From Sneathiella marina (GTDB lineage: Bacteria > Pseudomonadota > Alphaproteobacteria > Sneathiellales > Sneathiellaceae), in assembly GCF_023746535.1 (NCBI RefSeq), contig NZ_CP098747.1, positions 2,998,501 through 3,062,500 on the forward strand: a stretch of 64,000 nucleotides of DNA, given 5' to 3'. The stretch's first letter is position 1; the number at the start of each line of letters is the position of its first letter. The notes under the pieces are model-generated. The model did not search any database. It had not been told where the DNA came from and was given only the letters and a program-made list of their open reading frames with translations. The translations under genes were made by a program, and so were the position numbers. Below are positions 7,950 to 12,842 of this stretch, piece by piece.

Positions 7950-8793
7950 TACCTCCCTCTGGCAGCTCAGCGTTACCCTCCCATTGCCAGAACTTGAACC
8001 GATTGAACAGATACTTGAAGACCATGCTTTGACGATTTCAACAGAAGAAGCTGTGGCTGATGGTTCCCTTTGGACAATGAATGTCTTGTTTGAGCAAAAA
8101 CCGGGCGATCAACTCCTGCAACAATTAGACGCTGATCTTGACTATCTTGTTGCCCCTCTGGTTCAAAAAGATTGGGTTTCGGAAAGCCAGAAAATGCTTC
8201 CACCCGTCGATGCAGGACGATTTTACATTCACGGATCCCATGATCCTGTTCATCCCTCTATTTCCCGACATGATCTGACAATTGAGGCGGGGCGCGCCTT
8301 CGGAACAGGCTTGCATGAAACGACCTTCGGCTGTCTTTTGGCTATTGATGACTTACGGAAAAAGCGGGAGTTTTATAACGCACTCGACCTTGGCTGCGGA
8401 TCAGGCGTCCTTGCACTTGCCATTGCGAAAGCCTGGCGAAGACCGGTTCTCGCCAGCGATATCGATATAGATGCTGTCCTGGTAACAAATGAAAATGCCA
8501 AGAAGAATGGTCTGGCACCCCTCATTAAGGCAGAACATGCGGCAGGATTAAATAGCCGCATCCTGCACCAGCACGGACCTTATGATCTGATCGTTGCAAA
8601 TATTCTGGCAAAACCGCTAGTCACTATGGCTTTCAGCATTGCCAATGCTTTGGCAGACAATGGAGTGCTTATCCTGTCGGGTTTGCTTGGTAAGCAGGAA
8701 CAAATGGTGTTCAGCAGTTACCGACTACAAGGCTTGCGGTTGCAACGACGGTACGCCATAGGTGAATGGCGCGCGCTCGTCTTGTCAAAATAG
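7933..8793 (+). CDS. prmA: ribosomal protein L11 methyltransferase
   Basis: This 286-residue cytoplasmic enzyme uses S-adenosylmethionine to methylate ribosomal protein L11. The SAM-binding core is LDLGCGSGVLALAIAKAW followed by SDIDIDAVLVTNENAKKN, and the substrate-side motif is DLIVANILAKPL. The AFGTGLHETTFGCLLAIDDL segment before the core is the PrmA signature. The start is probably the TTG at 7933, inside the last codons of uvrD with a 17-base overlap. The first in-frame ATG would remove about 48 residues of the N-terminal substrate domain. The two genes are likely cotranscribed. Confidence 0.93.
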   Translation: MSKPADTSLWQLSVTLPLPELEPIEQILEDHALTISTEEAVADGSLWTMNVLFEQKPGDQLLQQLDADLDYLVAPLVQKDWVSESQKMLPPVDAGRFYIHGSHDPVHPSISRHDLTIEAGRAFGTGLHETTFGCLLAIDDLRKKREFYNALDLGCGSGVLALAIAKAWRRPVLASDIDIDAVLVTNENAKKNGLAPLIKAEHAAGLNSRILHQHGPYDLIVANILAKPLVTMAFSIANALADNGVLILSGLLGKQEQMVFSSYRLQGLRLQRRYAIGEWRALVLSK

Positions 8794-8870
8794 TGGAATT
8801 GTCGCTCTAGAAAAGAAGCAGCCGGTCCATCAACACTATGGGGGGATGCATATGAACCGGCTGCTGACGA

Positions 8871-9488
8871 TCAAACCGCGTGACGGTGATCGTTATCCTG
8901 TTTGTTGTCATTAGGTGGATTATGCAGATCATTCTTATCCGCAATTGCTGTTAGACTTCCCTGTTTAGAATTTATGTTTGCAGATGAACTGTTTGAGGGC
9001 GATAAAATCAAATTGCCCTGCACCGCAGCAACAATCATGCCTCGTGAAATACCTAAATCCGCAAGCTGTGAGTCACTCATTGCCATCAATTCACGATAAC
9101 CAGCTCGTCTTTGCGTTGCTTTTTCAATATTATCCCGGACTTTCGCTAAATATTGTTTCAATGCCGCAAACGACGTTGAGAAGCTTCTCCGCGGACGCCC
9201 GCTAACGATAAACTCGATTTCCCCCCTGGAGATTCCGAGTTTGGCAAGTTCATAGTCCTTCATCGCATAAAGTTCTTTTTTTGCGGTCGAGTTACGTTTG
9301 TACAGTGCAATGCGCCGGGAGATGAGCTGTGCCGTTAGCACTAACCTTCTCCGCACATGGCTACTTCTGAAGCGCCGCGCTCGTAAATGAAGTTCATCCA
9401 CGGTTCTATGATTGCGGTTAGATGGGTTTGCAGGCGCAACATTCGCTGCAAAAAACCCTCCAAAATCCGTCATATAATAATGCATCAT
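8871..9488 (-). CDS. double DUF1127-repeat protein A
   Basis: This is a protein of about 205 residues with two DUF1127-like units instead of the usual single one. Unit 1 is KELYAMKDYELAKLGISRGE followed by IEFIVSGRPRR. Unit 2 is GYRELMAMSDSQLADLGISR followed by GMIVAAVQGN. DUF1127 proteins are usually 50-90-residue, Arg-rich proteins of alphaproteobacteria, and some bind RNA. Here the units sit in a basic context (RARRFRSSHVRRRLVLTAQL) and are followed by a low-complexity tail ending HRHAV. I chose the ATG at 9488 because the longer frame begins with a TTG. No signal peptide or clear membrane segment is present. Its neighbour at 9788-10306 is a paralog with the same final pentapeptide. Function is unknown. 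Confidence 0.75.
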   Translation of the reverse strand: MMHYYMTDFGGFFAANVAPANPSNRNHRTVDELHLRARRFRSSHVRRRLVLTAQLISRRIALYKRNSTAKKELYAMKDYELAKLGISRGEIEFIVSGRPRRSFSTSFAALKQYLAKVRDNIEKATQRRAGYRELMAMSDSQLADLGISRGMIVAAVQGNLILSPSNSSSANINSKQGSLTAIADKNDLHNPPNDNKQDNDHRHAV

Positions 9489-9554
9489 ATCAATATCCCA
9501 AAAAAAGTATCGAAGGCTCAAGAGTGCTGCCGCATTCCTTCCAGCGCTTCCGAG

Positions 9555-9582
9555 TATTTAATTTAGCTTTCTTCTGGATCAA
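9555..9582 (-). promoter_or_regulatory. candidate sigma-70-like promoter for double DUF1127 protein A
   Basis: On the minus strand TTGATC (-35-like) is followed after 16 bases by TAAATA (-10-like), about 66 bases upstream of the chosen start. The terminator at 9706-9742 lies upstream, so this gene needs its own promoter. The 299-base stretch 9489-9787 otherwise holds only that terminator. Confidence 0.35.
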
Positions 9583-9705
9583 CAGTTATGCATCGATTAT
9601 GGCTTAAAAGTGTCACCGAAAGCGGATAAGTATTTACATTCCAGGTCACCTGCTAATACCTTGTTTTTCCTGTATAAAATTTTTTATTCACTCCCTCTTT
9701 TTCCA

Positions 9706-9742
9706 GAAAAAAATCCCTCACGCATCGCTGCGTGAGGGATTT
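9706..9742 (-). terminator. Rho-independent terminator after double DUF1127 protein B
   Basis: There is a perfect 14-base stem (AAATCCCTCACGCA paired with its complement) with a 4-base loop. On the minus strand it is followed by a run of T, and it lies 45 bases downstream of the stop at 9788. It separates the transcript of the upstream two genes from protein A. Confidence 0.88.
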
Positions 9743-9787
9743 CATACTTGATTGCCTGCAATATGTATTACAAGCTCATCATCTCAA

Positions 9788-10306
9788 TTAAACTGCATGA
9801 CGGTGTTCATTATTGTTGCTTGCCTGCGCGAGGTTGTCGTTAGCAAGCAAAGCTGTATTTCCATGAACCGCTGCTTCAATATCGCCTTTTACAAGCCCGA
9901 TATCAGCAAGCTGACGTGCATCCATTGCCATTAACTGAGCGTAACCAGCCCGCGCTTTCTGTGCACGCACTAGTTTTTCTTTAAAGCTTGCCCAGAAAGA
10001 AGGCGCCGGTTTTTCGCCCCTTCTTCCTTCTACAGCGTAATCTATTTCAGATCGGGTAATACCCAAATCGACTAGTTCTCTGTCCGACATAGCGTACAGG
10101 CTTCTTTTTGCAGCTGCGATTTGCCGGCTCTTCGCAAATTTACCTGTCACTTTGTTATAAAGGGACGCGATACCATTTGAAATATATTCGCTTCTCAGCA
10201 CATGACCGCGGTAGATCAGTGCATCGACATTGACATTTTCTTTATTCACTTGAACGGGTTGGATCATGGCCAAAGCTTCAAGTTCTTTCTGATTGTAGTT
10301 CATCAT
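9788..10306 (-). CDS. double DUF1127-repeat protein B
   Basis: This is a 172-residue paralog of the protein at 8871-9488. Unit 1 is RSLYAMSDRELVDLGITRSE followed by IDYAVEGRRG. Unit 2 is GYAQLMAMDARQLADIGLVK followed by GDIEAAVHGN. The tail is rich in Asn and Ala and ends NNNEHRHAV. The N-terminal 70 residues (YNQKELEALAMIQPVQVNKE onward) are unrelated to known domains. The start has a strong ribosome binding site, GGAG seven bases before the ATG pair. The 98-residue gene upstream ends 36 bases away, so the two are probably one transcript that stops at the terminator at 9706-9742. Function is unknown; single-unit relatives in other alphaproteobacteria have been linked to RNA turnover and phosphate or stress responses. 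Confidence 0.8.
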   Translation of the reverse strand: MMNYNQKELEALAMIQPVQVNKENVNVDALIYRGHVLRSEYISNGIASLYNKVTGKFAKSRQIAAAKRSLYAMSDRELVDLGITRSEIDYAVEGRRGEKPAPSFWASFKEKLVRAQKARAGYAQLMAMDARQLADIGLVKGDIEAAVHGNTALLANDNLAQASNNNEHRHAV

Positions 10307-10342
10307 AATACTTCTCCTTCGGAAGCAGATTCCCTTTCGGGT

Positions 10343-10639
10343 TTATTTAACAAAAGCGTTATTCACGCTTAGTCGTTCAATTTCATTTTCGTTCACTGAT
10401 TTATTTAAAATCTTGTAATCACGTTTTGCGGCTTGACGTGACACCGCATTTAACAAATCAACTTCGACAGTACTTTCAGATGTTTGACTCTGCCCAAAAC
10501 CCAATACTCGCTGCCAAAACGACGACGCCTTAAAATGACCGTTCAGTGATGAGCCATCTGCTTCGCCATTTGAAGCGCCATACTGCAAATGCAACGCTTG
10601 TCCGTATTTTTCGTTTCTAGAGAACATATCAATTTCCAT
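10343..10639 (-). CDS. unrecognised small protein (98 aa)
   Basis: This is a soluble-looking 98-residue protein that I cannot assign. It starts MEIDMFSRNEKYGQALHLQY and ends RDYKILNKSVNENEIERLSV plus seven residues. I used the ATG at 10639, which has AGGA nine bases upstream; a start at 10690 would add 17 residues without a clear ribosome binding site. There is one aromatic patch (SSFWQRVLGFG) and the rest is polar. The C-terminal half (LLNAVSRQAAKRDYKILNKS) could form a helix and vaguely resembles the basic helix that precedes DUF1127 units, but the signature glycine is missing. It lies just upstream of double DUF1127 protein B and is probably in the same operon. Confidence 0.6.
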   Translation of the reverse strand: MEIDMFSRNEKYGQALHLQYGASNGEADGSSLNGHFKASSFWQRVLGFGQSQTSESTVEVDLLNAVSRQAAKRDYKILNKSVNENEIERLSVNNAFVK

Positions 10640-10835
10640 ACTGTTTGTTCCTGGTACAGAATATATTGCACTGCATTCATTAAAAAACAATGGCTTACCC
10701 CCTGATTTTGCCCGCGAAGATCGTATTGGTGCATTGCATAAAATGCATAGCTAGGATTGCACTCAAACAAAAAAACCCCCATATTCACACTGAATAAGAC
10801 CTTTAATGCCAGATGCCGCATTGGCCGGAGATGTT

Positions 10836-12842
10836 ATGAATACAGCCGCAGAAATTGATGCCCTGCTTGCAACCACTGACACAGATTTAAGTAAGGAGTC
10901 GTTGACGGAACTCATTGAAGCTGTTGCCTCTGCTCCATACCGACCGGACGAAGACAATACCCTTCGGCATGTTTTACCAGGCCTGTCCTCGGAAGAAATG
11001 GATTCTGTAAAAACGGTGCGGGATGCCATTCGTGAAAAAATAGGACAGAATGTTCTGTCGCCTGAAAGTTCATCTGACCGTCTCGCCGCTTTACGTGCAA
11101 AAATGCTTGCGGAAAACTCAGACGGCTTCATTGTCCCGCTTAACGACGAATATCACGGCGAAGCGGCCCCCGCCTGCTCTGAGCGTCTGAAATGGCTGAC
11201 CGGATTCACTGGCTCGGCCGGCGTCGCTGCTGTCTTGAAAGAAAAAGCAGCGATCTTTGTTGACGGACGCTATACCCTACAAGTTGTCAATGAAGTCGAT
11301 ACGTCATTGTTTGAGCCTCGGCATGTTTCAGATGAACCCATGTTTGCCTGGATTGAAGATAATATGGTCAAGGGCCAAACCCTGGCGATCGACCCCTGGC
11401 TCCACACGGAAAGCAGTGTTAATGCGTTCAAACAACTGACGAAACGCCTCGGGATATTGCTAAAGGAAATAGACACCAATTTTATTGACGATGTCTGGAC
11501 AGATCGCCCGCAACCACCGCTCGCCATGGTCGTCCCCCATGCTGACATTTTTTCCGGAGAAACATCTCGCGACAAGCGGGCAGCCGTCGCGGCGACATTA
11601 CAAGAAAATGGAGTTGATGCCTGTATTCATACCCTGCCTGATGTGAACGCCTGGTTGTTGAATATTCGCGGGGCAGATCTTCCCTGCACGCCGTTTGCGT
11701 TGGGCTTCGGCATTCTTCATAAGGATGCTACTGTTGACCTGTACATGGATGAGCGAAAGCTGTCTTCGGAATTGCCGGAGCATTTGGGCAATAGCGTCCG
11801 GTTATTTAACCCAGACCAATTTCAGGACGGTCTCGCTAATCTTGTGGGCAAAGCTGTCCAGGTAGATCCTGCGTCGACCAGTCAATGGATTGTTAATAAA
11901 CTAAAGAGCGCACAGGCGAAAATTGTCCGCGCAGACGATCCCTGCCTTCTGCCAAAAGCAACGAAGAATGCCACTGAAGTTGCGGGAACCCGAAACGCAC
12001 ATATTCGCGATGGTGCTGCTGTAACAAAATTTTTGCACTGGCTTTCCCTCAATGCTGCATCCGGGTCAGTAGATGAAATCTCTGCGGAAGAGAAACTTCG
12101 GGAATTTCGCAAGACAGGAGATAAATTCAAAGATCTTAGTTTTCCAACGATCTCAGCGGCTGGACCCAATGGTGCTCTTTGTCACTATCGCTCGACGACT
12201 GCATCAAACCGTAAGCTTGAAACAGGTACTCTTTACCTCGTTGACAGCGGCGGACAGTATTTGGATGGTACGACTGATATTACCCGTACCATCGCCGTAG
12301 GTGAGCCATCGGAAGAAATGCGGCAGCGGTTTACCCTTGTTCTTAAAGGTCATATTGCTCTCGCAACAGCCCGCTTTCCAAAAGGGACGACAGGGAGCCA
12401 GCTTGATACTTTGGCCAGAGCCCCGCTTTGGGCCGCCGGCCTCGATTATGACCATGGTACGGGGCATGGCGTGGGAAGTTATTTATCTGTCCATGAAGGC
12501 CCACAACGCATTTCAAAAATGCCAAATTCCGTTGCACTCCAGCCTGGTATGATTATCTCGAATGAACCGGGGTTTTACAAAGCCGATGATTACGGGATCA
12601 GGATCGAAAACCTCGTGACTGTTTTTGAAATTGAAGGTTTGAAGAATGCGGAATTAACAACATATGGTTTTGAAACGCTAACTTTCGCCCCGCTTGATCA
12701 AAATCTAATTGAGGGCACATTGCTTACCACGGAAGAAGTTCAATGGGTCAACGACTATCATCAAGCTGTATGGAACAAAATTTCACCGCTGGTGTCCGGA
12801 GATGTTAAAGACTGGCTTCAATCTGCGACTGCCTCAATCTAA
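10836..12842 (+). CDS. pepP: aminopeptidase P family metallopeptidase (M24B) with extended N-terminus
   Basis: This is a 668-residue Xaa-Pro aminopeptidase-like enzyme that removes N-terminal residues before proline in the cytoplasm. The creatinase-type N-terminal domain begins at DRLAALRAKM (about residue 81) and includes ERLKWLTGFTGSAGVAAVL. The M24 catalytic domain carries the metal ligands in YLVDSGGQYLDGTTDITRTI, GTGHGVGSYLSVHEGP, MIISNEPGFY and GIRIENLVTV. The first 80 residues are an extra acidic helix-rich extension compared with the usual 590-610-residue alphaproteobacterial enzyme. The ATG at 10836 is favoured over 10806 because GGAG lies five bases upstream. It converges on ligA with a 3-base gap. 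Confidence 0.92.
   Translation: MNTAAEIDALLATTDTDLSKESLTELIEAVASAPYRPDEDNTLRHVLPGLSSEEMDSVKTVRDAIREKIGQNVLSPESSSDRLAALRAKMLAENSDGFIVPLNDEYHGEAAPACSERLKWLTGFTGSAGVAAVLKEKAAIFVDGRYTLQVVNEVDTSLFEPRHVSDEPMFAWIEDNMVKGQTLAIDPWLHTESSVNAFKQLTKRLGILLKEIDTNFIDDVWTDRPQPPLAMVVPHADIFSGETSRDKRAAVAATLQENGVDACIHTLPDVNAWLLNIRGADLPCTPFALGFGILHKDATVDLYMDERKLSSELPEHLGNSVRLFNPDQFQDGLANLVGKAVQVDPASTSQWIVNKLKSAQAKIVRADDPCLLPKATKNATEVAGTRNAHIRDGAAVTKFLHWLSLNAASGSVDEISAEEKLREFRKTGDKFKDLSFPTISAAGPNGALCHYRSTTASNRKLETGTLYLVDSGGQYLDGTTDITRTIAVGEPSEEMRQRFTLVLKGHIALATARFPKGTTGSQLDTLARAPLWAAGLDYDHGTGHGVGSYLSVHEGPQRISKMPNSVALQPGMIISNEPGFYKADDYGIRIENLVTVFEIEGLKNAELTTYGFETLTFAPLDQNLIEGTLLTTEEVQWVNDYHQAVWNKISPLVSGDVKDWLQSATASI

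Follow-up and report, generated by a model that had tools for sequence, protein, structure and literature searches.

A conserved gene pair with a two-unit DUF1127 protein in Sneathiella, and a tmRNA-tag-like tail on long DUF1127 proteins

Introduction

CcaF1 of Rhodobacter sphaeroides, like the protein that we here call B, carries a DUF1127 domain and comes from an alphaproteobacterium; judging from its length, we take it to be single-unit. It is described as a protein of 71 aa encoded in an operon with sRNAs (PMC12501420). The short DUF1127 forms of Agrobacterium, 47–48 aa long, bind the kinase PhoR (PMC12501420, PMC11707872); they have a DUF1127 unit in common with B, as does YjiS of E. coli and Salmonella (54 aa), and all are too short to hold two units and a tail. 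In Sinorhizobium meliloti, duf1127_1 is, like the gene of B, a long DUF1127 gene whose upstream region is apparently under strong control, and its uORF-dependent attenuation responds to translation inhibition (PMC12218461).

Other likenesses concern parts of the protein. The N-terminal 44 residues of B resemble the family NF046098 (RSP_7527), although most of the matches listed for that family are short, separate proteins that, unlike B, have no DUF1127 units. At its other end, B shares an ANDN core with the tmRNA (ssrA) tag, and many of its relatives share the final AA as well; the C-terminal degrons of ClpXP are described as ssrA-like or MuA-like, the latter exemplified by RRKKAI (PMC8138137). 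Unlike the tmRNA tag, the tail of B is encoded in the gene and not added by trans-translation, and its spacing is longer. Close kin are also the long forms of PF06568 (DUF1127, YjiS-like), many of which share an Asn-rich tail; both units of B score with that model, and B differs from the other long forms by having two units in a fixed order and a co-encoded companion, gene C.

Results

The genome of Sneathiella marina measures 4.07 Mb on one contig, and the window analysed here is a stretch of 64,000 nt from it. Three genes lie on its minus strand in the order C, B, A: gene C (10343–10627), which encodes 94 aa without a known family; gene B (9788–10306), which encodes the two-unit long DUF1127 protein of 172 aa; and gene A (8871–9488), which encodes a two-unit DUF1127 paralogue of 205 aa with the tail NDN...HRHAV. 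The start of A is most likely the ATG at 9488, giving 205 aa, and that of C most likely lies at 10627, giving 94 aa, because the methionine there is aligned across relatives. Only 36 nt separate C from B. The gap between B and A is 299 nt and holds a strong intrinsic terminator (9706–9741, minus strand), a 13-pair hairpin with a T run after it; the 91-nt stretch around it folds at -30 kcal/mol (z -5.05, with 0 of 200 shuffles equally good), and a consensus scan did not pick up the hairpin. With a terminator and 299 nt between B and A, the three genes do not form one obvious transcript. On the far side of A, between it and the converging prmA, the window has an inverted repeat at 8818–8864, GCAGCCGGT...ACCGGCTGC, and a similar long hairpin directly follows B in eight of the 13 relatives folded. 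It looks as if A had been placed between B and the hairpin through a later duplication.

A and B are genuine two-unit members of the family. Searched as whole proteins with PF06568, whose curated cut-off is 23.3 bits, A scores 41.2 bits and B 55.3 bits, each with two stretches and with both totals above the cut-off, and both of the sequence motifs written down in the initial annotation are found in both proteins. Taken as separate stretches in the genome search, unit 2 reaches 31.1 bits in B (9860–9970, minus strand; residues 113–149) and 37.3 bits in A (9015–9125, minus strand). Unit 1 of B (10025–10135, minus strand; residues 58–94) scores 28.7 bits alone, over profile positions 15–37 only, and unit 1 of A (9198–9308, minus strand) falls under the cut-off with 16.2 bits, while scoring 45.1 bits against a profile made of the Sneathiella unit 1s. 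The unit profiles also separate the two units of A, with 45.1 (unit-1 profile) versus 18.7 (unit-2 profile) for unit 1 and 47.1 (unit-2 profile) versus 34.6 (unit-1 profile) for unit 2. The units are thus of distinct types, as had been proposed from the sequence, and their order is common to A and B. That the duplication of the units preceded the duplication of the genes, a further claim of the initial annotation, is supported by these profile scores; the ungapped identity of unit 2 of A, 54% to unit 2 and 51% to unit 1 of B, makes the claim less clear for this unit, which also takes no placement in the unit tree (37 columns).

Towards its N-terminus, B has an RSP_7527-like helix (10103–10234, minus strand; residues 25–68) that scores 25.5 bits by hmmscan and 26.4 bits in the genome search against NCBIfam NF046098, whose cut-off is 26. 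The AlphaFold model of B has a mean pLDDT of 65.6 and a pTM of 0.29, and such a low pTM means that the model gives no relative arrangement of the two units. It predicts one long helix running into unit 1 and a second running into unit 2, with two short helices after the long helix of each unit. Comparison of the modelled fold with the PDB gave no confident match (best E 0.57), and the profile search of solved structures returned two matches only (E 0.3 and 0.63).

Proteins with more than one DUF1127 unit are uncommon, but they are not peculiar to Sneathiella. At least two units were found in 17 of the 65 DUF1127 frames at 60 loci of the class; leaving aside six Sneathiella frames and two duplicates, these come from at least nine genomes of four families (G025; G103, G198, G303; G348, G170, G250, G061; G164). 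The count is a lower bound, since inspection was confined to the loci that came back from the searches, in one of them 30 loci against 101 genomes with a match. Two units are likewise present in a frame from Skermanella (L126), and in the set picked with the Pfam model, multi-unit proteins occur at two of 30 loci (L148, L153). Four of the genomes (G348, G170, G250, G061; loci L182, L183, L184, L187) carry three-unit proteins, with tails such as AANSNHRAPKAA. In two of these families, the units cannot be assigned clearly to one or the other Sneathiella type. A common ancestry of the multi-unit proteins of other families was considered and set aside, the tree of the units (37 columns) being mostly unresolved; outside the genus, the unit order is preserved only in the G025 protein, whose gene occupies the equivalent position on the chromosome. 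Literature searches, covering mostly papers outside subscription, yielded no description of tandem or multi-unit DUF1127 proteins beyond the bare phrase 'DUF1127 domains' in one paper. The two-unit architecture is an uncommon, conserved variant of a known family; the novelty first suggested for it is half borne out, since multiplicity alone is shared with the two- and three-unit proteins found elsewhere.

Gene C was detected in 22 of 24 Sneathiella genomes and a match to B likewise in 22 of 24, our own genome included. The same two genomes miss both, and their assemblies are 65 and 66% complete; every sampled Sneathiella genome more than 66% complete has B and C. The loci of 18 relatives were compared, and every one has B flanked by pepP and prmA (at L052, with about 3.3 kb between B and prmA); tblastn places C upstream of B in 16 of the 18, and a motif and a profile search place it there in the remaining two. 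In a sample of 190 genomes from the class, C matched its own genome, two other Sneathiella and, weakly, G144 (E 0.056), with no match in the remaining 186, and it was not found in G024, the sole genome sampled from the same family outside Sneathiella; in the searches made, C thus came up in Sneathiella alone.

The two-unit form appears to predate the genus. Genome G025, from another family, has a two-unit DUF1127 protein between prmA and pepP, as B is, and its unit 1 scores 44.9 with the unit-1 and 22.2 with the unit-2 profile, with a near tie for unit 2 (27.6 versus 24.1); the shared chromosomal place and the shared type of unit 1 argue for the greater age. Gene A, on the other hand, occupies the prmA–pepP place in only two of 19 Sneathiella genomes (the window and 18 fetched loci), the other being G021, and its unit 1 groups with the G021 counterpart in the unit tree (support 97/89). 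A further two-unit copy is found elsewhere in the genome of S. chungangensis (L042/L077); the copy at L077, on scaffold4 and away from prmA–pepP, has a tail of the form ANCN...NDRRRAG. The three genes had initially been taken for one system, a view that the genome survey replaces with a conserved pair, C–B, and a younger paralogue, A.

Gene C, noted at the outset as a gene without a known family directly upstream of B, has kept that status and gained that of a conserved companion. It has no match in Pfam, NCBIfam or PHROGs and none to PF06568 at E values up to 10. Alignments show a conserved N-terminus, MFxRNEKYGxALHLQYG, and an N[EQ]N motif near the C-terminus, which all 17 aligned orthologues have among their last 25 residues and which reads NEN in the C of the window; in one Sneathiella subclade, C ends in, for example, KSNKR. 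The structure model has low confidence (mean pLDDT 53). By eye, the last third of C looks like the end of B, and we considered C as a degenerate DUF1127 protein; we rejected this with an hhalign probability of only 5.4% (E 0.0072, 30 columns) between the alignments of C and B, although the C-terminal end of C may have a distant link to B.

Upstream of C, a stretch of about 125 bp (10661–10785, minus strand) is strongly conserved among 14 aligned Sneathiella loci, with a mean column identity of 71% over the whole alignment. It contains repeated GTGCAA/TGCA elements and a possible uORF of 17 codons, which is intact in 12 of the 14 loci and shorter in L069 (16 codons) and L071 (13 codons). Variability in the two candidate frames is flat over the codon positions, without codon periodicity, and no well-spaced ribosome site was seen by eye in the alignment. 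A structured RNA was considered and rejected, the folding energy being weak and compensatory change being found in 3 of 26 pairs only; a search with Rfam over 8600–11000 gave two matches, both outside this region and far below the gathering scores. A sigma-70-like consensus scan gave four sites versus 3.6 expected, none of them upstream of C. We infer a promoter with operator sites, or promoter/leader. In duf1127_1, a translated uORF drives attenuation (PMC12218461); the region upstream of C is conserved but has no clear coding or RNA-structure signal.

The most far-reaching observation concerns the C-terminal tail of B (9791–9850, minus strand; residues 153–172), which is absent from the initial annotation and reaches well beyond the locus. 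The tail is Asn-rich, is predicted to be disordered (pLDDT below 50), has ANDN at 9833–9844 and ends in EHRHAV. Within the last 25 residues, ANDN is found in 18 and NDN in 19 of 20 aligned proteins, that of G025 included. The tmRNA tag of the S. marina genome is ANDNNEAFAVAA, and a scan of 30 tmRNA loci, 29 of them in other genomes, yielded a tag at 28, every one of which begins with ANDN and ends with AA. The ends of the Sneathiella B proteins are V, I, G, S or K and never LAA; the B of the window ends in HAV.

Across the family, 36 of 54 distinct long DUF1127 tails show the pattern [AVPSGD]NxN within the last 40 residues, compared with 9 of 519 control genes; for a final AA, the figures are 31 of 54 and 20 of 519. 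Tails and controls were drawn from 121 loci: two groups, of 61 and 30, had been selected for their likeness to B, and a third, of 30, with the Pfam model only. Tails were treated as distinct if their identity over the last 45 residues was below 60%, and the controls are non-overlapping open frames of at least 100 codons, not curated genes. Six of the 54 tails belong to B and A proteins of Sneathiella, and a few others come from frames that are unlikely to be genes, such as L136 on the minus strand. At the loci picked by Pfam alone, the motif is found in 6 of 12 tails versus 3 of 92 controls and the final AA in 7 of 12 versus 1 of 92; among 16 DUF1127 proteins without a tail, the motif is found in none and the final AA in one. 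The middle position of NxN is open to many residues (D, E, Q, T, S, H, R, Y and others), and the final residues differ between tails. In the set of 519, the full tag-like pattern has a single bearer, a gene C; gene C likewise accounts for all five AN[DEQRH]N tails among the control genes of an earlier set (n = 628). On the strength of these sequence comparisons, a tail with NxN, and often with a final AA, is a mark of long DUF1127 proteins across the Alphaproteobacteria. Searches of the literature that mentions DUF1127, again mostly outside subscription papers, found no description of this tail and no link between DUF1127 and ClpXP.

We also considered a tag-like tail as a general feature of the proteome and rejected this. 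The genome has 74 sites coding for AN[DE]N, and among the 71 looked at (the set leaves aside 3008333, in B; 3014608, in the window; and 3236366, in the tmRNA tag), 30 lie within 30 codons of a stop. One of the 30, 26 codons from the end of a TolC-like frame, is preceded by more than 100 open codons; the remaining 29 are preceded by between 0 and 78 and are, in our judgement, probably for the most part not gene ends.

The S. marina genome has the adaptor SspB, which scores 134.6 bits and lies 139 nt behind the tmRNA match (the two are neighbours at G000:C1:3236124–3236998). In 27 of 29 relatives having both, tmRNA and sspB lie within about 1 kb on one contig, and in G067 and G109 they are on different contigs; of a further 35 genomes, selected because they carry DUF1127 genes, 34 also have SspB. 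As SspB and tmRNA are expected in the class, their presence is a precondition for any role in the turnover of B and not support for it. Genome G224 has a tailed DUF1127 protein (L145), yet its assembly shows neither SspB nor an alpha tmRNA match; as the two genes adjoin in 27 of 29 genomes, both absences could stem from a single missing contig. In three Reyranella-like genomes, the DUF1127 tails have AANQN, AANEN and AANRN versus tmRNA tags of the form ANDNTVTLAAAA.

Discussion

A tail that is disordered, conserved and tag-like, in a genome with SspB, suggests controlled turnover. Our preferred reading, to which we give a rough probability of 35%, is that B is a DUF1127 adaptor sensitive to dose, with a tag-like tail of its own through which SspB/ClpXP sets its level. 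C and B would form a genus-conserved two-gene unit; the two helical units of B could contact two sites, on RNA, on a sensor kinase or on both; the tail would be recognised by SspB and/or ClpX; and ClpXP would keep B low, probably together with the co-encoded C and its related tail, with the level of B rising when the ClpXP route is busy or slowed. The binding partner, the degradation and the joint action of C with B are what we infer here, and several observations count against them. The Sneathiella B proteins do not end in LAA, and the KSNKR-type ends of C in one subclade are unlike a ClpX signal; 18 of the 54 long tails have no NxN and 23 of the 54 have no final AA; and the tails and tags of the three Reyranella-like genomes do not match, and the G224 assembly shows neither SspB nor an alpha tmRNA. 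As to the ends, those such as HRHAV and HRKAV resemble the MuA-like RRKKAI when compared by eye. A tag in which the SspB and ClpX sites are set four residues further apart by an insertion, and whose last residues are altered, depends on SspB (PMC8138137), and the longer spacing in B would fit with that dependence.

It is possible, though somewhat unlikely, that the tail instead serves to dock some other conserved partner, such as a kinase, an RNase or a ribosome factor, with no turnover involved and with the likeness to the tag due to chance or to a shared adaptor preference. Enrichment and disorder would fit a linear motif of any kind, and the loose middle residue of NxN, the varying tail ends and the basic residues that end some C tails sit well with such a role; against it, the likeness extends to both ends of the tag, with the NDN/NEN core on one side and the excess of final AA over the controls (31/54 versus 20/519) on the other, which exceeds what docking needs.

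Reading B as a tandem RNA-binding protein, by analogy with CcaF1 and its presumed single unit, would make its two Arg/Lys-bearing units clamp RNA and its tail incidental, and we consider this unlikely. CcaF1 binds RNA and two further DUF1127 proteins of Rhodobacter likely do so (PMC12501420), A has a high pI of 10.5 and a charge of +14.5, B is moderately basic with a pI of 9.3 and a charge of +3.4, and the N-terminal module of B is like RSP_7527, the 3' UTR of whose mRNA yields the sRNA UdsC (PMC9779115). The Arg content of B, however, is 7.0% versus the 14% quoted as the average for DUF1127 proteins (PMC12501420), Salmonella YjiS showed no RNA binding (PMC11707872), so that published DUF1127 proteins differ in this respect, and the tail is left unaccounted for. 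An ordinary lineage-specific elaboration, with domain duplication but no mechanism of its own, phosphate or stress regulation through PhoR as in other DUF1127 proteins and a fast-evolving C of little consequence, is improbable: two- and three-unit proteins do occur in several families, perhaps through independent duplication since the units of two other families do not sort clearly with the Sneathiella types, and single-unit DUF1127 proteins already act via protein contacts (PMC12501420), but C and B are both retained in every sampled Sneathiella genome above 66% completeness, the 14 aligned loci show strong conservation ahead of C, and the tail of C is related to that of B.

Turnover through SspB/ClpXP, our preferred reading, could be taken one step further, to a proposal that we regard as a long shot: long DUF1127 proteins would bear a gene-encoded mimic of the tmRNA tag, sharing SspB/ClpXP with the products of stalled ribosomes, and C–B would be a doubled, co-encoded version of the same device. 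If this were true, a flood of stalled-ribosome products would spare the DUF1127 adaptors, which would accumulate, and protease load would thereby report trouble in translation to the regulatory network. Many traits depend on the widespread DUF1127 proteins, while their control, and whether they act on RNA or on protein, are unsettled. The tag-like tail, common to many long members in several alphaproteobacterial families, offers a concrete and cheap test of how their amounts are set, and with C–B come a defined companion gene and a DUF1127 protein that is two-sited by nature.
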